Origin: Cochliopodium minus | Taxonomy: Eukaryota > Discosea > Himatismenida > Cochliopodiidae | DNA: 64,000 bases | Reading direction: 5' to 3' | NCBI GenBank assembly: GCA_024220525.1 | Contig: JAMYWO010000115.1 | Span: 24,099-88,098 of the forward strand | Shown here: positions 5,670-30,671 of the stretch, one piece after another | Position numbering within the stretch: position 1 is the first letter of the stretch | How the letters are laid out: each line of letters starts with the position of its first letter | Translations under genes and position numbers: made by a program | Notes under the pieces: generated by a model | What the model was told of the DNA's origin: nothing | Databases searched by the model: none | The model's input: only the letters and a program-made list of their open reading frames with translations

Positions 5670-6068
5670 TTTTTATTTTAATTTGAGAAATGAATACTAT
5701 TCAACCATCCTGATTCAAATTATTTGATATATGCAAAAATATCATTAGCAAAGAAATCCCATCATTAAATTATTTGGACAATATTGCAAGAGATTTGATT
5801 GTATCTGTAGCTTATCCATTCGTTGAAATACAAGTCAAATAAAAATACATGAAAGATATGATCAAAATACCAGTACCAAAAAACAACAATATATTTTCAA
5901 CCATAATGCACATCAATTTGTTTTTTTTTGAAAAAGTTGATGCAAAAACAAATTATCAAATGAGTAAGAGGGAGTATGCTTGTTTTTTTTTGAAAAGGTA
6001 TTTTTAAAAAATTATTCGAATAATTATAAAAAAAAATAAAAAATAAAAAATAAATAAAAAATAAAAAA
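5670..6068. other. Intergenic stretch with no recognisable gene
   Basis: This 400-bp stretch separates the aminotransferase start from the ambiguous base at 6069. The forward strand has two short open stretches (about 5745-5840 and 5850-5998) interrupted by stops, with codon use that looks protein-like, for example NYLDNIARDLIVSVAYPFVE. They could be a fragment of a decayed gene or of a gene cut at the junction. I do not recognise the family. Confidence 0.3.
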
Positions 6069-6069
6069 N
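6069..6069. other. Ambiguous base / possible assembly junction
   Basis: A single N sits where a glutamate/lysine repeat frame abruptly meets an unrelated A-rich sequence. This suggests an unresolved or collapsed repeat rather than a simple miscall. A second N occurs at 48194 in a similar A/T-homopolymer setting. Confidence 0.6.
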
Positions 6070-6520
6070 TTCTTTCTCAAGACGTTCTTTCTCTAATCTT
6101 TCCTTCTCAAGTCTTTCTTTCTCTTGCTTTTCCTTTATTTCTTTTTCCAATTTTTCTTTCTCTTTTTTCTCCTTTTCAATACGTTCTTTCTCTAATCTTT
6201 CCTTCTCAAGGCGTTCCTTCTCAAGTCTTTCTTTCTCTTGCTTTTCCTTCTCAAGTTTTTCTTTTTCCAATCTTTCTTTTTCAAGTCTTTCTTTCTCAAG
6301 ACGTTCTTTCTCAAATCTTTCCTTCTCTTGCTTTTCCTTTATTTCTTTTTCTAATCTTTCTTTCTCTTTTTTCTCCTTTTCAATACGTTCTTTCTCAAGT
6401 CTTTCCTTTTCTCTTTCTTTCTCTTGCTTTTCCTTCTCAAGATGTTCTTTCTCTTGTTTCTCCTTTTCTAATCTTTCTTTCTCTTGTTTTTCTTTTTCAG
6501 ATTTTTCTTTTTCATTTCTT
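6070..6520 (-). repeat. Imperfect repeat encoding KERLEKE units
   Basis: A degenerate minus-strand repeat with units of about 15-21 bp encodes runs of K-E-[KR]-[LI]-E and ends exactly at the N at 6069. Because units are near-identical, copy number may be wrong in the assembly. Confidence 0.8.
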
Positions 6521-6954
6521 TTATTCAACTTTAATTGTATATTTTTTAAAAAGGTTATCAAAAATGAATAATTTGAAATATAATCACCCCTCCAAAGAAT
6601 TCTCCAAAATTGATCTTATCAATTTCTTTGATATCATTCAAATGTTTATTTTCTCCTAAATATTGAGTCAATTCTTTAGAATATCCATTCTTATTGAAGA
6701 TATCGAAGGCCATATTAAAATTCTCCAATATATCGCTATTATTCTTTAATAATAGTTTAATTGCCCATTATAATCAGTTAAATAGGAAATATTACCTTTA
6801 TTTCTTGATGATAATTAAATTCCTCCTTTACATTGCATAATCTCTTTGCAACATTCACCATTATGATACCATTCTTCAAATCTTCATTGAGATTAGTGAT
6901 TTTAAGATTATCATCCTTCAAAATAGTATTTATAAACTTAATTGTTTCTTCCAT
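6070..6954 (-). CDS. Calponin-homology domain plus KEKERLEKE coiled-coil protein, 3' truncated
   Basis: The start ATG at 6954 opens MEETIKFINTILKDDNLKI, followed by a CH-domain-like segment with LNEDLKNGIIMVNVAKRLC. An intron (about 6720-6795) leads to NSDILENFNMAFDIFNKNGY and INFGEFFGG, covering roughly residues 1-100. A second intron (about 6516-6572) then joins to a highly charged repeat of [12 protein letters not shown]-type units (about 150 residues before the N at 6069). CH domains of this type bind actin or serve as adaptors; the charged repeat should form a long single helix or coiled coil. The C-terminus is missing at the ambiguous base. The same repeat type forms the gene at the right end of the window (62831-64000), so the two may be paralogues. 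Function beyond a cytoskeletal guess is unknown. Confidence 0.6.
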
Positions 6955-7073
6955 TTTTTTTTTATTTTATTTGAATCATTCCATGATGATAAGAATACAT
7001 TGATACATTTTTGAAAATGATTGTTTTGAAGCAAATAAGATGAATTATTAACAAATAATTTTAATGAAACCAA

Positions 7074-10000
7074 TTAATTTTTACAAGAATATTTTGACAA
7101 AGAAGAAATGAACAAAGATTCTTGCTCAAAGTTTTCACACTTTAGAATAAAAGGCTTTTGGTTGGAAGGAGTGATCTTCACACCACTAATACCACCAGAA
7201 TTGTTGGATCTTTGTACTTTCTGGAAGGAAATAGAAGCAAGGGGTATCACATTAACCTTGGGGAAAAAGAGGACAAGGTTTTTCTTGGTAATAAACAAAG
7301 AACATCTTTCATTGTGGTCATCGTAGTAAATATCAATGAATCTATTTTTTTAAAAAAAATTTTAAAAAAATAAAAATTGAATTTTCTAATTTACCTCGCA
7401 TAGAAACAAAAGATAGGATAAGTGGTCGTTAAAGGTTCTATTTCTTTAATTCTTTGGATCTCTTCTTGGGTTGGCTGAATCAACTTGATATAGGTGGAGA
7501 CGTAAGGGGCTTCAAGGATCTCAATGGGAACGTTATCGTTGATGAAATCGAACATGTACTTGAATACATTCGAAGTTATTTCAAGAGTGTTTCTAGCAGG
7601 TGATGTAAGTCCAATACCAGTTGTCTTCAATCTAACAAATAAATAAAAATAAAAAATAAAAAAGTTCAAATGATAAACAAAAAAAAAAATTTACCCAGAC
7701 AAAAACCCAAATAATCCAAACTTTCTTGCTTTTTCAAATGGAGCTAAGAGTGAATAGAAAGGATCTTTGATGGAATCAAAAGTTTTCTGCAAGACAGTCC
7801 CACTTTCCAAAATGATTTCTCTTTCAATGGAACTCTTGTTGAGAAGCTTGCAATGGCTCTTCAAATCATTGAGTTTTAAGATCCTCAAAAGTCTAGAGGA
7901 AGATTCGGTGAATCCAATCAAACTGATCAAAGCAGCATTGGTCAATCCTTTGAAAAGAGAGAAAAAAGCGTTGGAGATCTCTTTTATTTTCACTTTTTTG
8001 CTTTTGTTTTTTCCAATACTTTTCAACATCTTTTGTTTAAACTCCTTCAAAGATTTTATCAAAGAAGATACCACACCAGAGATGTTTCCTGTCAAATCCA
8101 AACTTCCTAAAATAGCAGGTATTTGACTAAGAAATTGTTTGGCCAAGTATTCAGTCAGTAATTCCCACAATAGATCTGGCAGAGTCAATGAACATTCTTC
8201 ATGTGACCAATTTCCCATTTTGAGATGTAGATCTTTGATGCTGAGGAATGCATCCCAGGGGATAGTGTTGTCTGGAAAGATATCTTTGATGAAACTCAAT
8301 TTGGGAAGGAAATCTTTTGGATTCATCCAAGAGATGTACAATGAAAACTCCTCGATTTCGAATCTATCAACAAAGATGGGCGAATCATCTTTGGATTTTT
8401 TCTTTTCGATTTCATTATCATTTTTAAAGAGATTCGAGAAAGAATCTCCTATTTTTTGGAGAGAATCATAATCCAGGTTAATGTATAAAGGCAAAGAAAA
8501 GAGGGTGATGTTGGAAAAATGATTGATCGACTCTTCCTCCCTTGTTTTGGTTGTAATCACAAAGCACTTGATTCCATCATTAGAAGATCTGCTTGTTGAT
8601 AAAATAGGATACTTGGCACCTTCTATTTTATTATCGACTTGGTAATCAGCAATAGAAAACTGATTGATCTTTTGTCTCGACAAAGATTCGTTTTTGGAGA
8701 TGAACTTGGAATCCTTCAACAAAATCTTCATAAAAGTTGATTCACAAGCAAAACTTATGGCGAGAAAAGGAAGTTGAAACTCAAAGTGAACTTCTTCTAA
8801 GAATGCAAGATCGTTGGGAAGACTCTTTTGTGTTTTTGGTTTCAAGAAAACGTTTGATTTCCTTTTATTGTTCTTGAAAGGAGAGGATTTGACAACATCA
8901 CTGTTTTTCTTTTCAGTTAAACTCTCAAATTGTTTATTGAAAGCCCCAAAATAAGATTTTGAGAGGATCTTTTTAGGAAGAGGTCTTATTTCCAAGTTTC
9001 TGCAGTCTCTATGATAATACAAGGTTAATTTGAGTACGTAGGATTTCTTTGGAGAATACAAAGTTATGAGCATGTGTTTGGGTCTCACAAACTTTACTTT
9101 TTCACTCCAGTTACTTTTATGTCCTACTCTCACTCTCATTGAAAGCTTTTTCTTTCTGATGTTAACAGGAAACCAATTTTGGAGCTCTTCAAAACTTGTT
9201 TTCTCTTCATCTTCATCGTTGTTTGAGTTGTCCGAGGCCAAATACTCATTAAAATGATGAGGAAAGAAAGAATAGCTTGAACCACCTTCTATCTCGTGCT
9301 CACATCCCTTTTCTTTGGTTTCTTCTTTGAAAAACATTTTGTGTTTCGTATAGTTGTAAATATTGAAAGGAGCTATTGTATCCATGAACGTGATGGTGAC
9401 GGGACATGGAAAACTTCTAAAATTGTTTTTTTCATCATAGTCCACAGTGATTCTCCCAATCAACCAAAACTTTTCTAATGTTGACTTATGTTTGAATCCA
9501 ATCACAAAATTTTTGTTGAGCTGAATCAAAAAGGGATCAGACCATTCTAAATCGTTTAACTTCCCACACATGATCTGAAAGAATATCTGTTTATCATTGT
9601 TAACAATCCATTTGCACAAATCGAAATCACTTCCTCTCTTCAAAACAAATACATCATCACTTCCGTCCTGCCTGATGCTAAGATCCAAGCTCGATTTGTT
9701 TTTGAAGATGTATCTGGGCTCAAATGTAACTTTGCTAAGATGTGTAGCCTTTTCTCTTATCACCTCCACAATGTATTGACTTTGCACGTAATGATCCTTT
9801 ATCTTGTTTTGATTTTTATTTGAAATCAAGTTTACATTGGAGATGATGAATCTGATGGGATTATCATTATCACTCCTATCGAAAATTTCTTGAGTGATCT
9901 TGGCTTCCGAAATTGAAATACCTCTTTCGTGCTTTCCAATTAGAGCCAAACTGTTTTCTTGGATCTCCTGTGTTTTCCCCCAAAAGAATCCCATCGACTT

Positions 10001-13000
10001 ATTCGCTTTCACCAAAATTGTTTCCACGTTTTTTTCTTTAACAAAATTGTACTTGGAGATGTTTAGATCAGAGGAGGTCTTGTTCACTATGAGGTATTCA
10101 TTCATGAATTTGATCACATTTGTTTTCTGATTCTTCGTGTGGAACACCAAGATCTTCATCCTTGTGTCTTTATTGTTCTCGTTGGTGTGGAAGAGATTTA
10201 GGTTGTAAAGATTATCATTGCTCTCATCAAATTGGATTTCTCTGGACCAATTCGAATTAGATCTTATTTTTATGAAGATCTTCTCTTTAGGATCGATCAT
10301 GTAACCCATCTTCTCCTTTTTGTCAATGATCTGTTGCAGATTCAATCTTTGAGAGTTCAAAAAAATCTCGATGGGGATACATGTCTCATTCTCAAACTGA
10401 TATGTAGGCTGGATATGTATGTTGGTCGAATCATCTTGCAAAGATAGGGAGATGTAGAAATAGAAGGAATGAAAATCGTTGTGGAGTTTGATGAGGTTGG
10501 GATCTTTGCCTACTTTCTCCAACGGGAAGCTGTTGGTCCAACATTCAATCTCATTCGAAGCTTTTTCATTCTTTTCATCGATACCTATTTTGATGTAGGT
10601 ATTCTCTGATCCAATCAATTTGAGAGTAGAGTTTTTATCTACGGATATCTCCCGTTGATTATAATCACCACTCTTATTCATATAACTCTGTATTATGATA
10701 AGACTTTGAGGAATGGAATTGAATAGAGTATACTTATTTGAAAAAGTAATATTAAAGAATCCATTATCTTTTGATTTGGAAACAGAATAATAGATCTGAA
10801 TGCTCTTATCATTCCATTTTTGTTGTTTGATCTCATTGATGTTGAAAATATCTTCTTGTGAAGGAACGAGTAGAAGAGGTGTTCCCTTTATTTCGTTTTG
10901 AAAGGAGATGGTGGTCACAGATTTCATTTGATACTTCCCGCCATAAAATATGAAAAGATCAGGAAGGAGATTGTTCTCAAAGTTGAATTGAGAAACTTTT
11001 TTGGAAGAGATAGTAACAATCTGATTGTTTTCAACATCTTCACCCAAAAAAGAAAGGGTTATCCTCTTTTCGGTATTATTTACAAATTGAAAGTTATAAT
11101 AAGGTTTGAGATCTTCTTTGCTTATTTTGTTGTTTGGTGATTCCAAAAGATTCAAAGTGGATTGAAGCTTGTTCAAAAGGAGATTTACCGGAGGAGATAT
11201 TCTTATTTCGATAGGTTCTTTAGAAAGGATAGCTTTCATATTTTTCAAAACTTTTCCTTCAATATTCTTCTCACTGAACTTTAAATTGAATTTTTCAAGT
11301 GATAGAAGTTCTTGCAAACTGTTTGAAAGATAATCTTTGTAAAGAAAATGAAGATTTCCTTCCGAGAAAACAAACAATTCTGAATTTTCTTTGGATTTGA
11401 GGAGATTCACAACATTATTTACTTGATTGAATTCTATTCTCATGATTCCATCATTTTCAAAAGAAGTAGAATCGTTCAAAGAAGGAACTGAAATCAATGA
11501 GAAATGGTTAAGATAGAGAGAAATGGACAGGTTTGAATTAGTTTGGAGATTAGATTCTGACTCTACACTTTCACTCAAAGGGATCAAATAAATTTTGAGA
11601 CAAGATATTGTTGGCCATTCCAAATGAGATTCTCCCTTCTTGTAAAAAGATAATCTCCACTCTTTACTGAAGAAATTGGAAAGATCTTCTTCGTTAAAGT
11701 TTTTGTTGTGTTTGTCATTAGATTTCTGGATTGAAATGGAAACGTTCTTGTTTCTAGTGTTTGTTTCCAATATACAAAGATCCTTGTATTGTTGTTCCAT
11801 TTCATCAAAATATTGAAGGATGACATAATCTGGAGAGGAAAGAACATTGTCGTTGATCCATTCTATCCTTGAAATTTTGTGGTTTTCTTTGTTTCTCCAA
11901 AACAAATATCTTACATTGTTGCGTTGCTTTTCTTCGTTTGGGACAGTCCAAGTGTAACCTTTCTTGTCATCGAACCAGTATTCAGAAGAACTTGGCCAAA
12001 ATTGTATTTTATTTGAAGATTGGTTGGATAGGAGTATTTCTCTTTCTTTTAATGAATCATAAATTTGGATGTTAGAGGAAGAATTATTGCTCAAGAGAAC
12101 GGAGACCAGTTTATTTATGTTCATTGACATTTTCATAAGAAAAGAGTATTGTTTAATTGGAAGATTTGAGATGAAAGAAGAAACGGAAATTTGAGATCTT
12201 GTGTTATTTTCTGTAAGATTATTGAAGCAGGTTGTCTTTGATTCAATTCCAAAAATCTGAACTAGATTGTTGTTTCCTATTCTTTCTCTTAATTTCCTCT
12301 TTTTCAAAGACTTTTGATGAAGTTTAAGTTGAATACTCTTCGCTTTGATCTTCCATTCTTCCTTGGGTGTGTTAGTAACATTATTGTTGTTATATTCAAT
12401 GTTTGAAAGCACAAGAGCAATGGTCTTGCTGTATTCACTCAACAAAACTTCCAAGTCAAAACTATTCAAAGAAGCAAAGATCGTGTTATTGATTGATTCT
12501 TTATTCTCATTCTTCTTTCCATCTGAAAATAACAAAATTTGTTCAACAAATTCAATAAGAGAAGGTTTGATTATTTCGAGCTGATCATACAATGGAGATG
12601 TGATTACTTTTGACGATATCTTATTCAGAAAGAAGTTTAAGTTTTTCATTTTCTTGTTTGATTCTTGTTTTGTTTCAATCTTATCAATTTCGAAATTAAA
12701 GTAGACATCTTTTTCCTCTTCAATCAATTTGATTGTAAAATTTTTGAGAGTATTAGTTTGAAGATCATTTTCATTTTCTACACAAGATATGTGAGTGAAC
12801 CTTTCTAGATCAAACGCAAATCTCACTTTCTTTTCGATGTTTTGAGGACCAGGAATAGTAAAGTTGAAATCTAACAAAGAAAATTGAAAATTTACGATAT
12901 TCTTGGGTTGAGGAGAAGAATCATTTTTCTTGTTGATGTTATTCACAAATTTTAAAATGTTGGAGAAGAACTTGTTGTTGGAGATATCTTCAAAAGATGT

Positions 13001-16000
13001 TAATTGATATCCTTCAACATTTAGAACTATGGTGTTTTCAACAACATTATCCCTTAATTTTTGATCACTCTTTAAAAAGATTGCTGATTCATTCGATTTA
13101 GGAATAAATAAGGGTATTAGGGAAGAAGTGGAACAATCAAATATTCTTATCATTTCAACACTTGTAAAGAAATTTGAAAGATTAGAATTTTGGAGAATAA
13201 AACTATTGACGTTTATCTCGTTTATTTCAATTCTTGAGAGAGGAGAAGAAGATTCTTCGAAAGAAAAGACAGATCCACTTACTCTTTTGATGATAAATTT
13301 TGTACTTTGTTTTGTTTCGGGAGGAAAAAACTTTTTGGAGTTCTTCTTGGTTTTTAGATTTGAAATATTTCTGATGAGATCTTCTTTCTTTTCGTGAGTT
13401 CTATTATTTTCGCTTTTTCCAATTGAATCAACAATATAAAGTATCTTTTCCACATCTTTGAGAGAAAGTTTGAGATCTAAACCTTCAATCACTGATGTGT
13501 TTTCTGAAACGAGAGGAAGATCGTTTGGCTTGAGATTGAAATTCTCTTTGTTTTTGAACTTGAAATTGTTGATAGTAGAGATCACAACAGAACCTTCTTT
13601 CAAAACATGTTGATCTTGCTTCTCATCCATATTTTGTTCAAATTCATCAAATAAGTTTCTCTTTGAGCTCATACTTCTAATCATATCTTTATCTGTCCCT
13701 TTGTTATCACTGTCAGAAAGACAAACAATTATCTTTGGAATAAGAGCGCTGGTGGTTTGGAGAAAGGAAAATGGAGATAGATTTACTTTCAAAATTTCAA
13801 GAGAAGGTATCAACACGGAAATAGAAAATCTTCCATCTTCGCTGGGAATGCTAACAGAGATTTGCTCGATTTTTGTTTTCAATTTTCCACACAAAGAATC
13901 CAAGTAATAACCTAATTCTCTTTCATTGACCCAATGGTTCTTCAAGTTTCTTTTGGAGAATATTCTGCAGAATTCCGTCCAAGAACGATACTTGATAGCG
14001 TTGATGCCTTTCTTTGCGATCTTGTTTTGTAGCTTTTCTTTTCTTTTTTGAGCTAATTTGTAAGAAAGATGTTTCCATCTTAACTGAGTAGAAGAAAGAT
14101 TAGAAAGCTTTTCTTCTTTTTGTTTCGCCAAACCATTTGTACCAAACTTTAACTGAGAAATGATCTTTTCAAATAAGATTTGATTGTATATCACATTCAA
14201 TCTGGAAATGTTTATCTCCGCTTCCAAAGGCGCAACACCTGTATCAATACATTTTATGTATCCTCCCTTCCAAGAAATAGAAGGATTCTTAATTTGTAGA
14301 TTGGAGGAAGTTTGGTTTTTAATTTGTTTGTAAATTGGGCTTTCTAGAGTAGAAGAAGGATTTGGTCTATAGGAGTTTACAGGATAAGAAAAAATAGGAG
14401 AAGCTGTATCGTTTATCATTCTTCTAATAGGTGTGATTTCGGTATCTAAACTTCTTTTTGGAGTGAACTGGCCTATTGATGTCCTTGGAGTGTTATACTC
14501 GCTTATGTCACCATTTTCCTCTAATGATTCGTACATCTTCTTTATTTCATTCAAGTTGGATATTTCCTTTGAAATGAGTTCTGTGTGGGCTCTGGAAAGT
14601 GTAGAAAATAAAACTGGAAATTTGTTATTTTGGGTGATTCTGTCTACCCCTATAACATTGTCAACAGAGAATTCCAATTCAACTTTTATATTTTTGTCAT
14701 CAACAGAAAATTGTTTATTTGTAAAAGAGATCTTTAAAATATTAAATATTAATTGTAAAATAAAAATGAAAAAAACTATTTTACATCTTCAAGAAGTATT
14801 TCACAAAACTCATTGTTTGATTCTTCCAAAATTACAGATGCTTGTGGAAGTGAAATGAATATTTGGAGATTGTTTTTCTCCTTGAATAATTGCTCTTTTT
14901 TCTTGTAGAAAATGGTTTTCCATTTGGTGATGTCGAACATCCTTGAAAGTGATTCCATCTTCTTGATTTCATAGATTTTAAAAAGACTATGAAATGATTT
15001 GTTCAGCAAAGATACATTTTTCAAGTCTTTTGGTGATAGATAAGAACAAATATCTATGAAATACTTTTCAATTGAGAAAACAGTAAAAAAATCAGATTCA
15101 TCATCTTTGTAATCCTTCCCGAATTTGATGATATCAATGTTGGTTGTATCAAAAATGTAACCATCTTCCATTTTGTCCATGGTGTTGAATACTATGTCTA
15201 GAATGTTTTGGAAATATTTGTTTTGAAAGTGGAGACAAACTTTTTCGATGTCGATGCAAAGTTTTAACTGACTCCTCGAAGATAAATCGTCTTGAAATTC
15301 CTCCAAAGACATTGTAAAAGAAAAAGGCTCGTTCAACAAGAATGCGTTTGTATTGGATTTGTATGAAGAATAGTTTAATTGGAGGACTTTCATTGAATAA
15401 AACTCTACGCTAGTGTTTTGGATGTTGTTCTCAGAGAAATAAAGATCTTGATTTGTATGGTTAGATACTTTGATTGAAGAAAATTCCAAAATGAGCATTT
15501 CTGTGTTCTCATCTGAAGGATAAAAAAAGAATTTTATTCTAAATTTTAAAACTGAAAAAAAATTGTTACCATTATGATCAAATGGAGCTATTAAATTTGG
15601 TGAATCCAATATGACAGACCACTTTGTACCACTGTAATCAACATCTTCGTTTTGTATTTTTGCTTTTTCTTGTATCTTTATTGCCTCAGACGTTTCGGGA
15701 GATACAGAGTTGATAAAAAGAGTGAGTTGTCTGATGAGATCTGGAGAAATACATAAATTCAAAGGAGACACTTTTAATTGGAAATTTTTTGGAGCCTTCT
15801 CATCTGCGGGAATAAACCCCTTTAACAACAAAACTGGTTTATTCTCGAAATTTGGTTCAAAATAAAGAGATTTTGAGAAAGGTTGAAGAATTTGTCCTTC
15901 ATTCCACAAATTTTTGATAGTAATGTCCCTTATTTCACATCCCAGCTTTATTGACTTTCCTGTTATGAAATTTGTTTCGATATGGGACAATCTGAGTTGC

Positions 16001-17545
16001 AATAGAGGCCTTGGAACTACATAAACCAAATCAACAGTGTTTACATCCAAAATTTCAAGAGATTGGATCAATATTACTTCAATACCAATGATCGAAATCT
16101 TAAATTTACAAGAAGATTCCTTCTCATCAACATCATCTTGTTCACCTGGAAAAAAAAATTAAATTTTTAAAAATTTTTAATTATTTATCTCGTTGTTTTT
16201 ACTTTGTTCAATCAGCAATTTGAGTTCTTCTTTGTCTTCTCTTTTCAAACTTAGTTCATCAGATGAAAAATTAAGCTTACTCTCCAATTTTAGCTGATCT
16301 ATCTTTTGAACATCTTCGTTTTTCATATCTTCCACAACTTGTTTTAATTTTTTCTCGAAATTGTCTTCAAACTCTTCGCCCAAAACTTTTTTCTTCTTAT
16401 CTTTAGAAGAACCCATCAACCAACTCCCACCATTAGCGACAAGAGAATAAGCCCAACCAAATCCATAAGTACTTTCTTTGAATAATTTTTAAAACGAGAA
16501 AATAAATTTTTTAAAAAAAATTTTTTACGATTGAGATTGTCATCTTTTAGAATGTCACTTTCGTTTAGACTCGTATTATTATCTTCAGACTTTTCCATAT
16601 CAAAAATGAACTGAAACTCTTTCATTAAGATTGAAAAAGAATAGAAATCTATGTCTCTCAATCTGATAGAAAGAGGAGAATCGCAAGAGATGTTACAGTC
16701 GATTAGATTTGAACTTGAGCCTTTGGAGTAGGTTAACTCGACGACCAAGTTGATTGGTTCAACAATGCTATGTATGTTCTTTAACAAAATTTAAAAAAGA
16801 GAATAAAAGTAAAAAGTTTTTACTTTCTTTTTCTTTTTAACTCCCGATGATTCTATTATAAATGGAGTGGAAAGCTCTCTTTTTATTTTTTTATTGGACT
16901 CTTCTTGTTTATTTTCTTCTATCATACATGTGAATGACTTTATTTCTACTTTCTTTTCCAAATTAGAAGAATTCATGTTTGGATCTTTTTTGAAAGGATA
17001 GATATATATCATTTCTGCATAGAAATGAGTGATAGAAGAGCTGAATAGTTTTTCATTTTCAGAATGGAAAGATATATTCAAATCTATCAGCTTTATTTTC
17101 AAATTATCTATCAATCTCTGAAAGATCAATGAGAAATATGAGGATGATGATTCTATCTTTTCCGATTTCTTTTCCATTTTTTTGGGTTCATAGGAATGAT
17201 TTGCTATTATTTCCAGCTAATGATTAAAATATATTAAAAATCAGTTAATATTCCCCATAATATGGTTATTTGAGAAAATATGATATTTACAGTTAATCCT
17301 GTCACTTCAATCTCCAAACTTGATGTCAATAATCCTGACCATGGTATCTTCATATCTAATTTATTGATGAAACCTCTGCTTATTTTTACAGGAAATTCCT
17401 CTTCCAATGTCTTGGTATTCAATTCAAGGTTCATCAATGTTATATTTCCATTCCACCAAGAGAGTTTTAATTCCTCCCTCTTTAATCCAACAACATATTT
17501 TCCAATATATCCAATCACAAAATTCCATGCGATATTCTCAAACAT
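7074..17545 (-). CDS. VPS13: VPS13-family bridge-type lipid transfer protein with inserted F-box-like motif
   Basis: This giant protein of about 3,200 residues is predicted to form a hydrophobic groove carrying phospholipids between organelles at contact sites. The N-terminus at ATG 17545 is a canonical chorein segment (MFENIAWNFVIGYIGKYVVG, then LKLSWWNGNI and KIPWSGL). Five early introns are followed by one intron-free exon of almost 7 kb (7691 to about 14700), then two small exons ending at TAA 7074. The middle of the large exon has six beta-modules each carrying a conserved Asn (FVNNTEKRI, FENETCIPI, IVNKTSSDL, FKNKSSLDL and others), matching the VAB adaptor-binding domain. The C-terminus has the ATG_C/DH-like region and a final PH-like segment (FILKCENFEQESLFISSLSKY). 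Between N-terminal groove strands, at about 14970-15085, lies an F-box-like motif. Family is certain; which VPS13 paralogue is not. Confidence 0.9.
14970..15085 (-). other. F-box-like motif inside VPS13
   Basis: The encoded peptide has the spacing of an F-box: an ICSYLSPKDLKNVSLLNKSF core followed by HSLF and, some 25 residues later, TKWKTIFYKK, as commonly seen just after F-boxes. It interrupts the VPS13 strand pattern, which resumes at LQIFISLPQASVIL. It is in frame in a continuous exon. No SKP1 binding is shown, only sequence resemblance. Confidence 0.55.
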
Positions 17546-17749
17546 AAAAAGGTTGAGATTATCGTTTATAAAAAGATTCTATTGTTTCTTTTTTTTATTT
17601 TGGTTTGATGTAACAATAAAATCCCAAAAAAAAAAATATATAACATCAATATATTTTATGATTGTTTGAATATGTGAGTGAATGGATAGTTTTATTTTAA
17701 AATTTTAATAAAGATATACAATTGAGAGGATGACAAATTCCTAGAAGAT

Positions 17750-18683: not shown

Positions 18684-18930
18684 ATCAAATTAATGGTATT
18701 TTGGTTTTTTTTTATTTTTTTATATAATATTTGCCCAATAAAATTATTTTTATTTTTTTTCATTCAGTGTTGTATGAAAAATTAATAAATATTGTAAAGT
18801 TGTGTATTTATTTTTTAATTTCAATGCTGATTTTTTTTTTTATATTTTTCAAATATATATTTTTTTTTTCAGTTTAATTAAACAGTATCTCAAAAATAAA
18901 AAAAGGGTAACATTTAACCTTCTTTGTTTA

Positions 18931-21900
18931 ATGCAATTGGATCTTCATAATTTTTGTTTATCTGTAATTGATTTGCCACTAATCAAACAAAGAATCGAAG
19001 ATGTCAAGGATGATAAAGAATTTATCAACGAATTCGGCCAAAGTCCTCTTCATTACATTTGTATGAATTCAAATGCAAAAATAGAGACAATAAATTACAT
19101 GATAGAAAAAGGATTCGATATAAATCAGTTGGATATTTATAATAAAACCCCATTTCTATATGCATCACCTATAATAGACAATTTGCAGTTATTCAATTAT
19201 CTTTTAACAAAGAAACCAAATTTATATCTTGATAGTATTGATTCGAGCTTGAAAATGATTTGCAGATATACCAAAAATATCGAGATATTGATTTCATTGC
19301 TAATTTATATAAATGCAAATGATAAAGATTATAATTTCAAATTGGATCAACCATTACAATGTCCATTAACCATCGCAAAAGATTATAATTCCAATATATC
19401 AAAAGTAAATTCTAATTTTCCCATTATAATCTGAAAATATGCTAAAATAAAATTAATATTCAAAGAACATAAAAGTAGATATAACTGGATTTACCATATA
19501 TTCAGGAAATCTGATAAATGGTAGAGGGATGATAATCACATGCAAACATGAACCACTTGGAATAGATGGGATGCATTTCAGCACCAAGATGTCTTTCGTG
19601 ATATCCAAAGTAAAACTACAAAAGAAGTTAAGTTCGGAAGGAGTTGCAAGTGGGACATTGGTAATACCTCCCCAAGCAGAATCTTTTTTATAATTTTTTT
19701 TTAATAATAAACAGAAAGAAGGAGGAAGGGAATACTTCGTTCAATTCAAGGATGGAGAAGAAATAGTAGGATCAAGGTATGTTTTTATTCTTAAAAGAAC
19801 ACAGAACATTAATACATTCATTATTCAGGAAGGATGCTTTTGTAACTTTGTTTAAATGTTAAAATATTTGTTTTAAACCAATCATTACTTATTTAGCAAG
19901 GAGTGAAACTGATGATAGTAGGAAATGAAAATGTTGGAAAAACAACGCTAAAAGAAAGGTAAAATAGAAAATCTACTGAAACATATTTTTTGAATTTTTT
20001 TTTTTTTGGTAATTTAAAGGTTAATTTCTTCAGGCGATGATGTAGATAAAGAAATGTTAGATAATATCAAGAAAAAAGAAAAGAAAATGACCCATGGGGT
20101 TGACATCAGATCATGGAAGGATAGTGATTTAAATACGGTATAAATATATTTGGATTATTAATAAAATGCAATATTATTTCTTTATTATTAATTTATTTTT
20201 TATTTTTATTTTTAGCTATTTTCAATTTGGGATTTCGCAGGTCATGAAGAGTAATAAATAAAAGTGAATTATTTAAACAATTAACTCCTTTTAAATAGGT
20301 ATCATATTGCACATTCTTTCTTCTTTAGTAGGTGAAATAATCTTATTTTATTTTTTTTTTTTTGATCATCATTAATTGTTTACTATTACTAGTAAGAGTA
20401 TCTACCTTTTATTGTTCAACTGCTCTTATGATGTCAACAAAATTGTTTCTGAGAATAAATTAATTTATTGGATGCATTTTTTAGGTAAAATTATTTATTC
20501 AAAATTGAATATGTAAATATTTTTTTTTAGAGAGTCAAGTGGGAAATACATGTCCTGTAATGTTGATTGGAACAAAAACAGATTTATTGAAGATGAGTGA
20601 AAGAAATTTAATTACAAGATTTTCTCAAATTAATACAGGTAAACATTTTTTAATTTTTAAGATTTTTTTGTTTCTTATTTTTTATAGAGATCAAGAATCT
20701 TGTTCAAAGAAACAATATCAAACTGGATATTTACCATGTGATTCTCGAAAATAAGAATTTGTCTGTTAAAGATGATTTTTATTTCTTCCCTTTGAGTTCT
20801 TATGAGGACAATCTTGAACTATCCGGAGTAAACAGTTTGAAAAAACACTTGGCACACAAATTCAAGTCAATTAAATCAAATTTTTCTGTAGGGCTCAAAC
20901 ACAATGTAGTCTATGATCTGATTAAAAATATCAATGAAATCGAGAAAAAACCTTTCATAAACGTTTCTTATTTGTGGGATAAACTTTTGGAGCAGTCTAA
21001 ATTCGATTTTCATACTTTCATTTTGTACTTGTGTTCCCAAAAAAAAAAGTTCGGAAAAAGATATGAATTGGAAAATATGGAGAATGGACTAAAGAGGTTT
21101 TCTGAAGATATTTTAGACTCTTTACACTATAAAGCTAGAAGAAAATTCGAGATTATTCTCAAAGATCTTAATGAATTGGGTGTTATTATCTATTTTAATA
21201 ATGATATTCTCAAAAATAATCTAATCCCAGGTAAATACTTGTAACTTATAAAAACCCTATTAAAAATTAAAAATTCTATTATTCAAATTGAAAGATCCTA
21301 AATGGTTCAATAAAGTCTTCAAAGAGGTATCAAAAAAAAAAATGTTCTTTTTCTTTTATTTAACAATCTGAATTAATTTTAATAGATTCTCAACATTGGG
21401 AAACTCAAAATTAAGGATATACTGGGAACTTTTTTGGAGATGTTTGAAAGTAAATCCCTTGTAAAAACGGAGATAGAAGAGCTCGTTTTGATTTTAGATG
21501 GGAAAGACAAAAACTTTTCTCCAATAAACATTAGTAATTTCAATATGACTGTCACCAAAATTAGTTTCAAGTATTTGTATAACAGATTCACCAACATTGT
21601 TGACAAAATGAAAAAAGATAACAAACTCAATCACATATTGTCTTTGATCAAAAAGAAATATTGGATAGAAGAGTATCAGGATGTGACACAACTAAGTAAT
21701 TCTCTTTTGAAACAAAAATTTTTTTTCCATTAATTTTTCAAATTTATATTTTTTAAAAAGTTTATTTTTTGACACAAAGGAACTTTGAAATATTCATTGA
21801 AAAAATTTTGATGGACAGTGGAATTAAAAGAAACAATCTACATAGTTTCCAGGAATACACTCAGAATTTGTTGATTGAATTTGGGTTAATTTTTTTAAAT

Positions 21901-23480
21901 TAAAAAAATTATTTTTTGTATTTATTTTTTTTTAAAAGTTTCATGTGTCCAAAAGAAAAGAGTGTAATGAAAGATGGAAAAAAGAAAAACACGTAATTTT
22001 TTTTTTTGTTTTAAAAAAAAGTTTTTAAATTTAAAATTAATTTAATATAGATACATCGTCCCTTTTTTGTTTCCAGAAACTAGGTTGACTGAAATAATTT
22101 TGAAAGGATTCAAAAAGATTCAAGGGACATACAACCACGAATGGACAACCATTTATTATCTCAAATTTAGGCCTTCTTCAATGTGGAAAATGTTGTTTTT
22201 GAGAATAAGAGGAGCCATTGAAGTAATAGAAATGGAGCAAGAAGTTTATTGGAAAGATGGTCAAAAAAAAAATTTTTTTTTTTTTTATTTTAATTAATTT
22301 TTTTTTTAGGGTTTGTAATTTGCTTCAAAATCGGGAAAAACTTGACAATAGTGGAACTCAACTTGTTGGAGAAAAATTTGGAGGGAGAAAACATTATTAA
22401 ATTGGATATCAAATCTACCACTAAAATAGACGGAATCTTCGAAGTTGTTCACAAACAAATCACCAATTTCATTCAAACATGGATTTTTCACTCTGCCAAA
22501 AACGAGATCAAGTTTATTATTACAAAAAAGTCAATGGAGAAAGAGAAACCCGTCAATTTGATGCAGGCATTGGTTCCTATTGAGAGAATCAAGATTCTAT
22601 GCTGTCATTGCTTATTTCCCATCATGATTAACTATTCTAGAGATTGCAACGCTCAGTGCACCAACTGTTTCAAAAATCCTGTCATTGAAAAATATGCGTT
22701 TTTAGATTTCAGTAACAAACATTTCCTTTCAAAAATAATTTTTAACTTTGAAATCTTCCAATTTCATTTTTTAGTTGAACAAGGAGGATTTGGTTGTGTA
22801 TTTAAGGCCCTAGATCTTGAAACCAAAAATTTGGTGGTCATCAAAGAAAGCACGCAAGAAAGAAAGTTTTTCGAGAAGGAGATCGAGATGCTCAAAATAG
22901 TTTCCGAGATTCCCAACTTTACTACTCCCAAATTTTTGGGATCTTTGGAGAACATCCTCCAAAGCAACATTTACATTGGTATCTTTTTCTTTGAAAAAAT
23001 AGACTTTTTTTTGTTTTTAATTTTTTTGAATTAATTTTTGTTTAAAATAGTAATGGAATACGTTGAAGAAGGAGGAAATTTGACAAATTTTCCAAAAGAC
23101 AAATTGAAATTTCTCAAATCAGAAAAAGAGTACATTAGGTAAACAAAGTTTTTATTTTTCATTTTTATTTTTATATTTTTTTAATACTTTTTTTAATATT
23201 TTTTATATTTTTATTTTTTAAAATTTTTTTTTTAGAATGCTGCTCATTTTGTTACACGAACTTCAAAAACTCCACAATTTCAATGTATTGCACAGAGACA
23301 TCAAACCTCAAAACATCCTTTGGTACAAAAAGAAAGACACTCTTCAGTTTATCTTCATCGACTTTGGATCCTCCTATTACCTCAACCAACAAACCACCGA
23401 AAAAATACCAACCAAAACGGAATTTTTCTCCCCCACAGAACAAAATCAAGAAAATGAAAGTTTTGGTATTTATTTTTGTC

Positions 23481-23513
<33 letters not shown>

Positions 23514-25631
23514 ATTTAAAATTTTTATTTTTATTTTATTTTTGTTTCTATTTTTATTTTATTTTTTATTTGTATTTTATTTTTTATTACTTACTTATTT
23601 GTTTCTATTTTTAAATAAGATAACTTTTTAAAATTTTATTTTTTTTTGATTTTTGATTTTATTTTTTTTGATTTTTTTTAATTGTCCAAATTTTATCAAT
23701 TTTTTTTTCAGGAAGTGATGTTTTCTCATTGGGAAAAACTATTTTCTTTTTCTTTGATACATACCTTCAAGTAAAAGTCGGAAACTTTCTCTCTAAAATT
23801 TTGGAGGATATGACCGAAAAGGAAATCGTAAAGAGACCCTCTATTCCCAAAGTTATCAACAAGCTTATTGAGTATTGCAGCAAAATGTACGACGGGGAGA
23901 TAGACATTGTCAAAATTTTGACCAGAAAGAAAGAATTTGTGCAGCCTCCCTTTTTTGATCCAAGCAGAGAGGAGAGTAAAAAATCAATTGGTATAAAAAA
24001 ATTTTTCTTTATTTAAATTTTAATTTTTAATTAATTTTTAATAATTTTTAATAATTTTTAAATTTAATTTTTATTTTGGTATTAAAATTTTTTGTCTTTA
24101 AATTTTTAACATTTAATATTCTAATTTCTTTTTTAGATCTATTATTATCATTTATTTACCATTTTTATTTTTTTAATTAGAACACAAAATACTGGGGAGC
24201 AGATCTTTTGGTGATATGAATGACGAATTCACCAAACCACTCAAAGAAATCGAAGCAATGCACAAGGAAATGAAAATCCAGAAAAGCGCGCTCAAAGAGA
24301 ACAAAATCTCAGAAAAGTCCATCTGCGGTCTAAAAAGGCTGAAAAACAACGATTACATGAACAGTCTCCTACAATGCCTGTTTCATTCACCCTTGTCAAA
24401 ATACCTCCTCCAAATAGAAATTCCTTATCAAAGTATTATGGAGAAAGAAAGGGATAAATACGAGAGAATCATTTTGGCAAATTTCGTTGGGTTGTGCAAA
24501 GAAAATTCCAGTAAGTGTGCGGGGGTCGTGGAATCTTCCAAATTGAACTATTTCGTTTCTAAACTCAAGAAAAACTCTCTCCAAAAAAAGTTGAATGGAT
24601 GTGATTATTTGTTGAACATTTTGGTAAACTCCATGCTTAATTGCTTCTCTTCGCACAAAAACTTGGAAGATTTCAAAGAAACTTTGGAGGAAATCATTTG
24701 TATTGAGGCTGAGAAAAAGTCCGAGTGTTTTTCTTGCAAAGAAACAGTCGTTAAGATCGAAAAGTTGTTTAGTTTGCCTTTGTCCATTCCTCAAGACAAA
24801 CCCAAGGTTTTTCTTGATGACTGTTTTCATTTACTTACCAATGGAGAAAACAAAGTTGAAGAGTTTTGTGATATTTGTAGAAAGAATACCACCAAAAAGA
24901 TGATCGTTTCAGTTACAAAGTTTCCAAAATTGATGGTTTTACAGTTTGAAAGATTTTCTCCCATCAAGTTTCTCCCTAAAATATTCAAAACCAAAGTCAA
25001 CTTTTCTTTTGGTGATATGATCCCTTCTTCTCTCACTTTACTCAAAGATGTTCCCAAGTATGATTTGATTGGAGTGATCAATCACAAAGGTTATTTTCCT
25101 GATAGTGGGTCTTTCTCTTCCTTTGTCCATGTAAAAGAAAAGTGGATCAAATTCACCAACGAACATTTTTCGTTGGTGGATGATACAGATCGAATAATAA
25201 GCAAAAAAGCTCTTTATTTATTTTACAAGGCATCTAATGTTACAACTAAAAATGAAACTGCATCTACATCTGTGGACAATAATATTGATCAACCAAAATT
25301 TTCTTACAACATTGAACCTCAATACGCTAATCTTACCCAGACTGTCTCCCCTTCATATCTAATTGATTTACTTGAAGAAAAGTGCAAGAATTTTTGGATT
25401 TCAAGTTTTGGGAAGAAATTTGCTGTGACATGGGAAACATTCACCACAAAACTAATCTCCTACAAGATTGATCTCTTTTTGGGAATGGAAAAAGAAGAAA
25501 ATGAAAGAATTTTGGACAAACTCAAATCTCTTCTTTCGGTTGAAGATAATATAATCACTCCCTTAAATATCTACCAAACAACCAACAATATCATTGATTT
25601 TGATCAGTTTATTGAGAATAATTTGTTTTAA
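18931..25631 (+). CDS. Ankyrin-Roc-COR-kinase protein fused to a USP-like (pseudo-deubiquitinase) domain
   Basis: This is a ROCO-family signalling protein of about 1,700-1,800 residues in roughly 18 exons. Domains in order: ankyrin repeats (18990-19404, e.g. NEFGQSPLHYICMN); an unknown beta-rich linker (19466-19850); a Roc GTPase (19900-20815) with P-loop GNENVGKTT, switch II WDFAGHEE and GTKTDL; COR (20830-22560), including TYIVPFLFPETRL; a four-Cys ribbon (22600-22680); a protein kinase (22770-23900) with VVIK lysine, alpha-C Glu, HRDIKPQN and DFG all present; and a USP-like domain (24310-25240). In the USP Cys box the sequence reads NNDYMNSLLQCL, so the nucleophilic Cys is Asp, and the His box reads SGSFSSFV instead of GHY. 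The two CxxC zinc pairs (CFSC, CDIC) are kept. The kinase's first glycine-loop Gly is Glu. It presumably acts as a GTP-regulated kinase with a ubiquitin-binding scaffold. The stop TAA lies 29 bp from the convergent CLU gene. Start choice is moderately certain. Confidence 0.85.
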
Positions 25632-25659
25632 TAAAAAAAAAATTAGAATTCTTGATTGT

Positions 25660-28216
25660 CTAAAAAGAAACAACAATCTTTGTTTTGATTTCTCCCAAAG
25701 AATTTTTGTTGTAGGAAAGGTATTTGATTCTAGGTTGAAAATCTCCAAAATCTTCAACTTTGAATTTGCCTTGAAAGAAAAGGGGAAGATTTGGGACGAT
25801 TCCAACAAGAGAAAAGAATCTGTTGAACATGGAAGAAAAATTAATAATACATTCTCCCAAATCAAAATGTTCTTGAAGTTCACATTGGCAAAGTGAACTT
25901 GGAAAAAAAGAAATGACTCTATCTTTGAAAATACTTGACTTGAAGAATAGAGGATGTTGAGTTTCGTTCAAGAAAGAAACAAGGTTTACCCTTAAAGACT
26001 CATTGTCAGTATTTTGGTGATTTCTCAAAGATTCATTAAAAAGCTTCTTGAGGGATCTCGCAATAATTTCCTCCAACAAAACATGTTTGTTGCGATAGTT
26101 TTTGGACAAAGATCTAACTAACCCAAGATAAAAAGCGTTGATTCCTACTTTGTGCAAAAATTCTGTGAGATTATCAGAAGTACTCAAGTCTAATGGATCC
26201 AAAGATTCTTTGACAAAGTTGGGAATGACTGTTTCTACGAGGTGTTTGGCTGCTTCTATCACTTCTTTCGCATTCTCTTTGTAATTATTTTCAATGTCCC
26301 ACCTCGCGAAAGTGTCGGAACAAAGTGGTTTTTCGTATTTCTGAGTAAACTCTGGTCTGAACAACTTTGTGTAGTTTTTTGTTTTGCATCCTTTTGGTTA
26401 AAGAAAAAAATAATAAATCAGTAAAATAATAAATTAGCAGAATTAAAAAAAATTATGGAAAAAGTTACTTGGAGGAGAAATTCTTGAAGGATCAATTGCA
26501 TCTTTAAAACAATATAATAAAAACATTGTCAAAATTTTTTAAGAAAAATTTTTCTTACAGATCCTTTTGTCATTTCCCAAATGGCCTTCAAAATCACCAG
26601 GTGTGTAACTATAAATTTGAACAAAGTTATTTGTCCCTTTGATAATGTGCTCCTTCAAGTTTGCCTTCATCCCCAACTCATCCATCATTTGATTAACTGG
26701 TTTTAAAGTATCGTAAACGGTTTTTCCACCATCACTCGATCCTAAGTACAATTAAATAAAAATAATTCAGTCACAAAAAAAGTAGATTTAAAGTAGATTA
26801 TTAAAAAGTCGGTAAAATAAAATTGAAAAAAAAATTTAAAGAATTTAAAAAAATATAGTTGATTGAAAAATCATCAGTAAAAATGATCGATAATTGGATC
26901 AATATTAATCATATAAAAATGATAATAATAAATATATTAATTTGAAATCTAATTGATCAATTATAATTGATACTTATGTTGATATAAAAAAATTGATCCA
27001 GATTAAATTCTCACAAAAAAATTTTCATTTAAATTAAATATTAATTATTCAAAAAAATTTTTCATTACCATAGACGAGGCTGTCGTTGGAGATGGGCAAT
27101 ATTGACTGGCACATGACCCTCTTTCCCTTGTATTCTACCAACACTACCATAGGGATCTTCAACCCAGAAATCCCGCTGTTGGAAATGAAATGGTATGACT
27201 TTAGTTCATCTGTAAAAATTTATTAAAAAATGAAAAAAATTATTTAATAAATAATCAAATTATATATATATATTTATATTTTTACGTCCTGCTATCTTCA
27301 TTGTGTCTTCGTAATTCTTAATATGATCATTTGTTTTTGCCAATTTGTAAAATGTATTTTGTCCCATAAATTTCTCACCTCCGAGCACACCTCCCAAATT
27401 CTTTTTGATGATATTGGTTGATGATACATTGTCAATTATGTCCTTTGCTATTTTTTTTTTTTTTTTCAAAATAGATGTTATGAAATTAATATGGGGAATA
27501 TAAAATGAAAAGGTTGATTGAATACAATAAGGAGAAATTATTTTATATATATGGTAAAAGTATATTTTTTTAAACTTATATAGATATATTGAATCATTAA
27601 TGTATATTTGAATCATTGAAATAATTTTTCTTCAAACAAAATAATTTGAATAATTATGCGAATCACCATACACTGTATGTAAATATGAATTGTATATTAG
27701 AAGATATATCTAATATAGATAAATGATTTTTTTTTATCGTATTAAAAATATGTGTGGATATTCAAAGAAAAAAAATTTCCCTTTATGAATATGATGAACT
27801 TATTAAAATAATTTTAATCTTATAAATATTTGGCTATTATCTTTATAAAGTATTTTACCTCCTTTTATTGATTCTTCCAAGAATTTTTTTTGGATTTCCT
27901 CTATCCCCTTTATATTTTTGTTTTCAAGATAGTACTGGAATGATCCATTCATACTTAAATCTTTGGTCTCATTCTCTTTGTTATTATTTCTGTTCAAGAC
28001 ACCCTTATCATAATACTCTTTGCAATCGAGAGATTCAGATTCTCCTATTAATAGGATATCATAGGAGCAAAAGTAATCTTCAGAATTTTGACATTCAGTT
28101 TTGATTGGAATTTCTTGATTTTCTTCTTCTTTTTCTCTGTTTTGGATTTCATGAATGAATTCATCTAATTTGATTTGAATATATGGATCTTCTGATTCTA
28201 ATTGATTGTTAATCAT
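25660..28216 (-). CDS. CLU-domain protein, paralogue A
   Basis: This is a stand-alone Clu central-domain protein of about 580 residues. The start ATG 28216 leads an acidic N-terminal segment of about 125 residues. Next comes the exon with LGGVLGGEKFMGQNTFYKLA and DTMKIAG, then the Clu core with YKGKRVMCQSILPIS, YGSSDGGKT and TPGDFEGHLG. The C-terminal half reads KPLCSDTFARWD, HKVGINAFYLGLVRSL and EIIARSLKKLF. These blocks match the amoeboid CLU-like family, where the equivalents are YGSSDGGKT, PGDIEGH and GIN-YLG-VR. The CLU-N, TIF31 and TPR parts of true CluA/CLUH are absent. Introns at about 26750-27068 and 27449-27843 are long; the second holds a dispersed repeat. The stop is TAG at 25660. 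Paralogue B follows directly upstream in the same orientation. Role unknown; CLUH binds mRNAs for mitochondrial proteins, but that need not apply here. Confidence 0.8.
27665..27790 (+). repeat. Dispersed intronic repeat, copy B
   Basis: This second copy of the roughly 110-bp element at 5192-5300 sits inside the first intron of CLU paralogue A. It shares TATGTAAATAT, AATTGTATAT, AGAAGATAT, ATATAGAT, AAATGATTTTTTTT and ATATGTG, in order and similarly spaced. Confidence 0.6.
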
Positions 28217-28447
28217 TGCGTAATGTAATTGCTTGTTTTTGTAAGAATTTTTTTTTTATTTCAGACAGAAAAATTTTTTATTCAATGAAAATAAAGATTT
28301 TTTCTCAATTTCAATGATTTTCTCTTATTTCAAAATGTGGATTGAAGAACTCAATTGAATATCATAATTAGATTTTTCAGAGAAAATAAAACATTTTTTT
28401 TTTTTTTATTGAACAAAATAATATTACAAAAACCAGTCTCGTGTGCT

Positions 28448-30032
28448 AGTTATTTACATACAATCTTTGGAGCAATGAATTTATTGATGGTTATGTCAAA
28501 AATAAATGGAAAATACTTTGCTTTTGGTTCAAAATCATCGAAATCTCCAACTTTTAAATCAAAATAGCTTTTGGTTGTAGAATTGGCACCAACAAGGGAA
28601 AAAAATCTTTGGAACAATAAAGGAAGAGACAAAAGAGAGTCCTTGATGTCACCATTTGTCTCATTCGAGTAAAGAGAGTTTGGAAAATACTTTAAGATGG
28701 ATTTCTTTAAATCGTAGTTCCAGAAAGAAGAGTTTACTTGGAGTTTGTTCACAAAAGAAACAAGAATTTGCTTGGTAGGAATGTTAGAGTTACTCCTGAT
28801 TTCGTTGTAAAACATTTTTTTGAGGCTCCTTGCAACGATTTCGTTGAAAAAGAGTTTTGAATTTTCGCAATAATAATCTCCAAATGAGGTTCTTATTGAT
28901 CCAAGATAGTTCGAATTGATACCATGTTTGTGCAATACCTTTGTAACGTTATCTCTATCGAATTTATAGTCTTTATAAAACTTTGCAAAATTTGGGACAA
29001 TGTTTTCTTCTAAGTGTTTGACTGCTTCATCAATTTCTATGGAATTCTCTTTGAATGTTTCTTCTTCAAATGAATCCCACTTGGTATTTGCATCAGAACA
29101 AAGAGGCTTTGTATAAGAAGCCACAAATTCCATTCTGAAAAGATCAGAAAAAACATTTGTTTTGCTTTCTGAAGAAAAAAAAAAGAAAGAGATTGAATAA
29201 AATTCTTTTAAAAAATAAAAGAATAGAAACTTACTTGTAGGAGAAAGTCTTGAAGTATCTAAACAATATACTTTTCCATCTTCTCCCAAGTGTCCTTCAA
29301 GATCACCAGGAGTGTGAATATCTATTGATCCTCTGTACTTTCCTTCGATTGTATGCTTTTTCAAGTTTGCTTTTTCTCCAAGTTTATTCATCAAATCGCC
29401 AATCTTTTTATCGTCGTAGTGCATTGTCTTTCCTCCATCAGATGATCCATATTTCAAGGTATCCTCAGATATTGGCACCAATGATTGGCAAATCACTCTG
29501 TATCCTTTGTATTCTATCAATGCTATTAATGGCATGTTTAATCCATCGATCCCACAATTGAAAATGTATTGACTAGATTTCAATTCATCTGAAAAAAACA
29601 AGTATTATTAAAGAATATAAATTTTTCATTCAATACTATTTCTTACTTCCTGCTATTTTCATCGTCATCTCAATATCATACCCATCAACCTTTGCCAATT
29701 TCAACAGCATATCTCCCACAATGTACTTTTTCCCTCCCAAGTATCCACCCATCGATATTGGCATCATTTCTTTGCCATCAATCAAATTCTTGGCTAAAAT
29801 CAAAAATATAGTAAGTTATTTTTTTATTTTATCCTAGAAAATATGTACCATTTTGTTTTGCTTTTTCAATGAATAGCAATTGAATCTTTTCTACTTTTTT
29901 AAAGTCTTTCCTTTCGATTGACTTTTGAAGTTTCTTGGTTGTATTAGTTTCAAATTTTAGATCATTCAGTTTAATCCTTTTATTACAAGGTACTCCAATG
30001 TAGTTTGTTTCTTCACTCTCATAATCAGACAT
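28448..30032 (-). CDS. CLU-domain protein, paralogue B
   Basis: This tandem paralogue of the preceding gene has about 475 residues. The start ATG at 30032 (MSDYESEETNYIGV) is followed by an intron and the exon GGYLGGKKYIVGDMLLKLAK. The Clu core is intact: LIALIEYKGYRVICQSLVPI, LKYGSSDGGKT, HTPGDLEGHLGEDGKVYCLD and TSRLSP. The C-terminal part carries KPLCSDANTKWD, HKHGINSNYLGSIR and NEIVARSLKKMF. Intron positions around the core match paralogue A, which argues for local duplication. A and B differ clearly in their N-terminal acidic segment and in intron length, so the duplication is not recent. The stop is TAA at about 28448. Function unknown. Confidence 0.8.
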
Positions 30033-30671
30033 TAAATAATTCAACAAAATTCACTCACAAACAGATTTTATTTTTTTATTTATTTGTTATTATGTTTATA
30101 AAATATGTAATTTTTCGAAGATTTTTCGAAATCATTTTCATAATTTACTCAATATTATTTTTAAAAAAGTGAATTTACTGCAGAATATTCACAAAAATGA
30201 TAAAGATATTTTTCAAATCAATTCTTATTTGTGAATTAAAGTATTCAAATTTCAAAATTAATTATATTTTTCTAAAGGAAGTCAAAAAACTAATTAATGA
30301 CTTGTGAAAAAAAATAAAAAAATATTTATTTTGTTTAAACAAATGTCTATCTTCAAAAAATGATTTAAACTTAATTTTTAATTGATAATTGTTAAAATTG
30401 AAAAACTAATTGGGAGAGTTTAATATAAATCAAGTTTTAAAACAAAATTCACCAATCAATTTTTGTCTTGAAAAGTAATAGTTTCCTCTTATGTAAAATA
30501 TAACAAAGAGGAATATATTTAAAATTAACTTAAAATTAATCTTTTTCATTTATTTTTCATTTTATGATTAAAAACTTTGAGTTTTCCATTACAAACATTT
30601 CCCTTACACTGATATTCAAATGATTTAAAGAATTTTGGAAAATAAAAAAAAATTGATTAGATAAAAAGGCA
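30033..30671. other. Intergenic region between divergent genes
   Basis: Very AT-rich sequence lies between the starts of CLU paralogue B (-) and CWC25 (+). No open frame, repeat or RNA gene is recognised. It presumably holds both promoters. Confidence 0.5.

Follow-up and report, generated by a model that had tools for sequence, protein, structure and literature searches.

In a 64,000-nucleotide (nt) stretch of the Cochliopodium minus genome (hereafter the window; C115:24099-88098, from an assembly of 44.65 Mb in 598 contigs), I find a predicted gene on the plus strand, at window positions 18931-25631, in which ankyrin repeats, a Roc GTPase, a COR region and a protein kinase are followed by a domain of the ubiquitin-specific protease (USP) family. 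The motifs of the Roc and kinase domains are intact, and the catalytic residues of the USP domain have been lost. The explanation that I favour, and consider fairly likely, is that a single gene encodes a ROCO-type GTPase-kinase which has acquired a catalytically dead USP, a pseudo-USP, at its C-terminus, where it would act as a docking or regulatory module. The domains and the intron that matter for this reading are the following, with E-values from Pfam, residues numbered in amino acids (aa) and GC denoting the G+C content:

18982-19215, plus strand: ankyrin repeats, aa 18-95 (Ank_2, 7.4e-7), with coordinates derived from the gene model
19906-20583, plus strand: Roc GTPase domain, aa 252-379, with motifs GNENVGKT, WDFAGH and TKTD (Roc, 1.3e-18)
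21128-21418, plus strand: COR-A match, aa 545-600 (5.1e-5; 23.6 bits, below the cut-off of 35.3)
22600-22668, plus strand: CxxC...CxxC pair preceding the kinase, aa 919-941, a zinc-ribbon-like motif that may bind zinc
22705-23990, plus strand: protein kinase domain, from the end of exon 22310-22711 to exon 23712-23990 (Pkinase, 3.3e-24, aa 954-1151)
23991-24180, plus strand: kinase-USP intron, 190 nt, 8% GC, phase 1, from the gene model, splice scores and composition
24181-25226, plus strand: linker and pseudo-USP (UCH, aa 1271-1571, 1.2e-24, covering profile positions 1-254 of 254)

An initial annotation, made from the letters of this stretch, had named these domains and proposed a search with the Roc, COR, Pkinase and UCH families as a check. 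All four families give matches; the ankyrin, Roc, kinase and USP-type domains lie where they had been placed and score above the Pfam cut-offs, and the COR-A match, below its cut-off, is complemented by two further observations. The paralogue C4 has a COR-A match above the cut-off (39.2 bits), inside a region that runs from before COR to the kinase and is 37% identical to the ROCO-pseudo-USP protein, and a second stretch gives a weak match (independent E-value 1.4) in the COR of the bacterial Roc-COR structure 4wnr. The full COR region probably extends beyond aa 545-600. The matches of the Roc region in the PDB include bacterial Roc-COR proteins and LRRK2 chains. Among the 18 Pfam families listed up to E = 1, no LRR is present before Roc, and ankyrin is the only repeat type.

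The kinase lies C-terminal to COR, and its description as apparently active agrees with the intact catalytic motifs GGFGCV, VVIK, HRDIKPQN and DFG. Its best relatives in the PDB (best 60 of 472) are CaMK (including CaMK1), CDPK, GSK3, STK25, NEK, CDK7 and similar kinases, and neither LRRK2 nor Roco4 occurs among those 60; LRRK and Roco kinases are typically of the TKL type. CxxC pairs are also found 5' of the kinase in the paralogues C523, C19, C387, C4 and C193, with a spacing of 12 or 15 residues. By locus, the CxxC...CxxC arrangement before the kinase is observed at L064, L081, L082, L038 and L050, a similar pair with longer spacing at L031, and no such pair was seen ahead of the kinase in L028 and L032.

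The USP-type domain and its lost catalytic residues

Judged by its sequence, the USP domain is a catalytically dead pseudo-USP, and cleavage of ubiquitin is not expected. Compared with USP15, the catalytic Cys is replaced by Asp (KNNDYMNS, aa 1277-1284, versus GNTCFMNS), the catalytic His by Ser (SGSFSSF, aa 1531-1537, versus GGHYTAF) and the third catalytic residue by Thr (KWIKFTN, aa 1543-1549, FTN versus FDD), and the first two replacements are also seen against USP4. The best sequence matches in the PDB are USP15 (1e-17), USP4 and USP11, with which the domain has the zinc-finger Cys pairs in common (CFSC, 1405-1408, and CDIC, 1452-1455), but from which, as active USPs, it differs at all three catalytic positions. 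In a gapped alignment the QxDxxE motif is apparently lost as well. An NCBIfam search and a scan of viral contigs gave no match for the domain.

The other USPs of the same genome were examined in a catalytic-box scan whose patterns allowed any residue at the catalytic position, covering 25 USP loci including the ROCO gene (of the loci L078-L080, L079 and L080 entered the scan); the Cys box was unfound in 18 of them and the His box in nine. Apart from the ROCO gene, the Cys box was found at six loci, and all six retain the Cys. Two further loci with Cys come from a pattern that required it, and C185 has an ordinary Cys box. The His box can be read in 14 other genes, of which 13 retain the His, C277 being the exception; the His-box match of L055 was set aside, as it runs into an intron. 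Twenty-one of the 45 columns that are invariant in four USPs of this genome are kept in the pseudo-USP, among them P, RF, K..N, Y-L-G-H-G-G, W and F.

It could be argued that the domain is still an active deubiquitinase working through different cysteines, which has been proposed in some papers for USP39, where Asp likewise stands for Cys, and reported for USP52 (claims reviewed in excerpts of PMC10919355). With all three catalytic positions altered in the ROCO-fused domain, and QxDxxE apparently gone, I regard this as very improbable. The same losses weaken the suggestion of the initial annotation that the gene ties a GTP-gated kinase to ubiquitin recognition.

The exception in the His-box survey, C277:5375-9697 (L008), encodes a zf-UBP domain and a USP with the box KENDSMN (Asp for Cys) and Phe for His; by its zf-UBP and its lost residues, I take it to be a Sad1/USP39-like pseudo-USP. 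The boxes of the ROCO-fused domain (KNND) and of C277 (KEND) have Lys, Asn and Asp in common, at positions occupied by Gly, Thr and Cys in ordinary USPs. In USP39 itself Asp replaces the catalytic Cys and the His is missing (excerpts of PMC10919355), so that Asp for Cys and a lost His are common to USP39, C277 and the ROCO-fused domain. This KxND box may be common to the latter two by descent from a Sad1-like gene or by convergence. In overall identity C277 is not favoured (59 of 288 aligned places, versus 71 of 299 with C57), and two ten-sequence trees disagree with low support, as FastTree groups the pseudo-USP with L004 (0.58) and IQ-TREE places it beside C277 (46). The ROCO-fused domain differs from USP39 in its weaker PDB match (3e-4, versus 1e-17 to USP15), and from USP39/Sad1 in that it sits on a ROCO kinase and that a Pfam scan finds no zf-UBP in the protein, whereas C277 has this domain upstream.

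The junction between the kinase and USP exons

The end of the kinase exon at 23990 and the start of the USP exon at 24181 are joined in phase. On splice sites and base composition, I consider it quite probable that the two parts belong to one gene, at least as one isoform. The donor (5.2) and acceptor (7.6) scores of the junction fall within the range seen for the remaining 20 introns of the gene. Neither ATG nor AATAAA is present in 23991-24180, where TTG occurs at 24076 and 24092. The first ATG past the junction is at 24216, and the 36 nt preceding it have 42% GC, whereas the same interval upstream of 17 small-GTPase starts in this genome averages 14% and reaches at most 19% (20 loci were taken, of which three have no readable start, and many are paralogous to one another). 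As the 36 nt past the junction acceptor (39% GC) also match the range of all 21 acceptors of the gene (22-42%), coding composition starts at the acceptor and not at the ATG. The length of the intron is not unusual for this gene, since another one, within the kinase, measures 246 nt. A gene-model score of 422.9 for one gene, against 372.9 for two genes, points in the same direction.

Several observations, however, weigh against the explanation favoured here. The advantage in score is inflated, because intergenic DNA was modelled at average composition. The paralogues C217 and C108 (at least two of the 13 paralogue tails end in this way) stop at the homologous point directly after the kinase. 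C217 has no good donor at its end, and C108 has a single donor (4.3) that is located before the shared motif; because no usable donor is present there, these ends look real, which makes it plausible that the kinase ends on its own at 24016. The 36 nt 5' of the ROCO-gene start at 18931 have 22% GC, which exceeds the maximum of the 17 calibrated starts. Neither this genome nor the viral contigs that were scanned contain a close relative of the USP exon, and the fusion thus has no confirmation from another gene or species. Finally, the pseudo-USP loses 24 of the 45 invariant USP columns, catalytic ones and others.

Alternatively, two adjacent genes may be present, one for a ROCO kinase whose frame closes at 24016 and one, of a single exon, for a pseudo-USP that starts at the ATG at 24216. 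An in-frame stop at the junction, named beforehand as a sign of two genes, does exist if the intron is retained (24014-24016, 26 nt from the donor; product about 1230 aa), while the spliced frame is open. Genes here can be closely packed, as the frame of the convergent neighbour ends 28 nt from the ROCO stop, and the ends of C217 and C108 fit this alternative too. However, the sequence before the ATG is coding-like, the intervening 190 nt contain no ATG and no AATAAA, and the in-phase acceptor coincides with the change in composition, which together lead me to consider two genes unlikely. The claim of one continuous gene is well supported, short of proof, by the gene model, the composition at the junction and the lack of an ATG there.

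Alternative splicing could also yield both forms, a short ROCO kinase of about 1230 aa with the intron kept and the long ROCO-pseudo-USP protein, and this would be compatible with the explanation favoured here. Retention of the intron gives an end resembling those of C217 and C108, and the junction splice sites are good, but nothing in the sequence demands two forms, and I regard their coexistence as a possibility on the doubtful side. A further paralogue, C523, was not used in weighing the junction; its frame is open for 85 codons from QPPF to the contig end, the last part being low-complexity, and its linker is coil-like as in the ROCO-pseudo-USP gene, but the likeness is too weak.

A possible docking role, and other ROCO proteins

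In the single-gene reading, the kinase would be controlled by GTP binding and hydrolysis at Roc-COR, in the manner of other ROCO proteins; this gating is proposed because of general ROCO biology. The pseudo-USP would keep its fold and, leaving ubiquitin uncut, serve as a docking or regulatory module through which the kinase is recruited to a partner that is possibly ubiquitin-linked. I infer such a docking role because catalysis is lost while the domain still matches the whole USP profile, and since the active site is gone, the tail is probably a docking or sensing part and not an enzyme. If one transcript carries both parts, the gene would be a compact natural case in which to ask whether a kinase can be regulated by a dead deubiquitinase fold, and by what route ROCO proteins come to carry new C-terminal modules and perhaps different types of kinase.

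The protein resembles the Dictyostelium Roco proteins, LRRK1 and LRRK2 in the order of Roc, COR and kinase in one chain, with accessory repeats at the N-terminus. It differs from these ROCO kinases in having no LRR by Pfam, a CxxC pair before the kinase, a C-terminal pseudo-USP, and a kinase that matches CaMK/CDPK/GSK3-type structures, with none from LRRK2 or Roco4 among the best 60 of 472. Excerpts of PMC6337361 list LRR, ankyrin, armadillo, WD40, DEP, RasGEF, myotubularin, PTP, cyclic-nucleotide-binding and GRAM domains as ROCO partners, and excerpts of PMC11378527 add TPR, TIR, CARD, death, RhoGEF and PH domains; the word ubiquitin has a count of zero in the main texts of both reviews. In a full-text literature search for the combination, in which most subscription papers and all bioRxiv preprints are not covered, no ROCO-USP protein appears among the titles and opening lines of abstracts listed. 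The reading of the initial annotation, a ROCO kinase with a USP-fold domain, is supported; an active USP is not. If there is one transcript, a pseudo-deubiquitinase stands in the same chain as an LRRK2-like GTPase-kinase, a ROCO domain combination not found in the literature searched.

Within the genome, Pfam UCH gives 76 exon-level matches, and no further place with ROCO and USP matches on one strand within 10 kb was found among the Roc, COR and ROCO-core matches listed, compared by eye with the UCH places. On C18, one fragment of Roc and one of a USP are separated by about 4 kb and lie on opposite strands. The USP exon itself, searched against the genome, matches only itself, C33 and C584, of which C584 retains the Cys box and C33 the His box, and no second box was seen in either. 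The ROCO core gives 78 exon-level matches, ten of them in the ROCO-pseudo-USP gene and the rest on 32 other contigs, some with Roc or kinase only. The expansion of Roc/Ras-type and ROCO sequences is large: counted at exon level and partly below the cut-off, the Roc profile gives 155 matches, which include small GTPases, and COR-A gives 60.

The paralogues C19:202600-207900 (L068, L081) and C387:5700-10950 (L069, L082) each consist of one uninterrupted frame of more than 1250 codons, which extends from ahead of Roc across the kinase into a Cys-rich tail. Like the gene in the window, they carry an added C-terminal module on a ROCO kinase core, but with a Cys-rich tail in place of the USP; that of C19 is at best RING-like (E = 0.03, 14.6 bits, cut-off 35), and C387 gives no RING match. 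As ROCO kinases of the same genome carry varied C-termini, a grafted USP is easier to believe. A more far-reaching idea, which I consider improbable, is that ROCO kinases in this lineage are a platform for the repeated grafting of ubiquitin-system modules (the pseudo-USP, perhaps Sad1-derived, and the Cys-rich, possibly RING-like tails of C19 and C387), in which the pseudo-USP would sense a ubiquitin-like or ligase partner and allosterically set a GTP-gated non-TKL kinase, and a retained intron would give a sensor-free form.

Gene model, C-terminal tail and neighbouring genes

The hand-curated model of the ROCO gene has 22 exons and encodes 1705 aa in a single open frame once spliced. All 21 introns are GT-AG; 19 of them measure 46-97 nt, and the last two 246 and 190 nt. 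The model is based on a small splice and codon gene finder followed by curation by hand, with splice matrices trained on 11 other introns of the ROCO gene and eight introns of a VPS13-like neighbour, the kinase-USP intron being excluded. The small exon at 20299-20331 was missed by the gene finder and put in by hand. Two gene-finder exons were discarded, one upstream of the gene (18693-18703) and one downstream, opposite a CLU-like gene (25647-25896). The start codon at 18931 is uncertain, as the frame is open back to 18778. The remaining features of the gene are the following:

18931-19404, 19466-19660, 19715-19776, 19829-19841, 19897-19958, 20020-20137, 20216-20250, 20299-20331, plus strand: exons 1-8
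20393-20484, 20531-20638, 20688-21230, 21295-21326, 21386-21695, 21761-21884, 21939-21992, 22051-22259, plus strand: exons 9-16
22310-22711, 22775-22978, 23051-23138, 23236-23465, 23712-23990, 24181-25631, plus strand: exons 17-22
25371-25463, plus strand: C-terminal match resembling the Cbl EF-hand, aa 1620-1650, FWISSFGKKFAVTW (Pfam Cbl_N2, 8.4e-4 on the tail alone)
25630-25635, plus strand: AATAAA overlapping the ROCO stop codon, a putative polyadenylation signal

The Cbl_N2 match on the tail is below the cut-off (20.4 bits versus 22) and covers 31 of 84 positions. A Cbl_N2-like motif, FW...(V/A)(S/P)W, is also found, with weak matches, in the otherwise different proteins of L060 (C5), L061 (C416), L062 (C181) and L063 (C11).

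The window has 20-35% GC in 2-kb steps, and its richness in short GT-AG introns indicates a eukaryotic origin; no tRNA genes were found in it, nor any Rfam match at the gathering score. In the genome one Fe-hydrogenase-type locus was found, an observation that does not favour an origin in Anaeramoeba. A very long gene lies on the minus strand at about 5956-17578; its longest exon (7696-14788) has no Pfam match at E 0.01, and by its motifs the gene presumably resembles VPS13. On the other side of the ROCO gene, a coding sequence of the CLU/eIF3_p135 type occupies 25660-30589 on the minus strand, apparently as a tandem pair, of which the nearer copy is convergent on the ROCO gene, with 28 nt separating the two stops.

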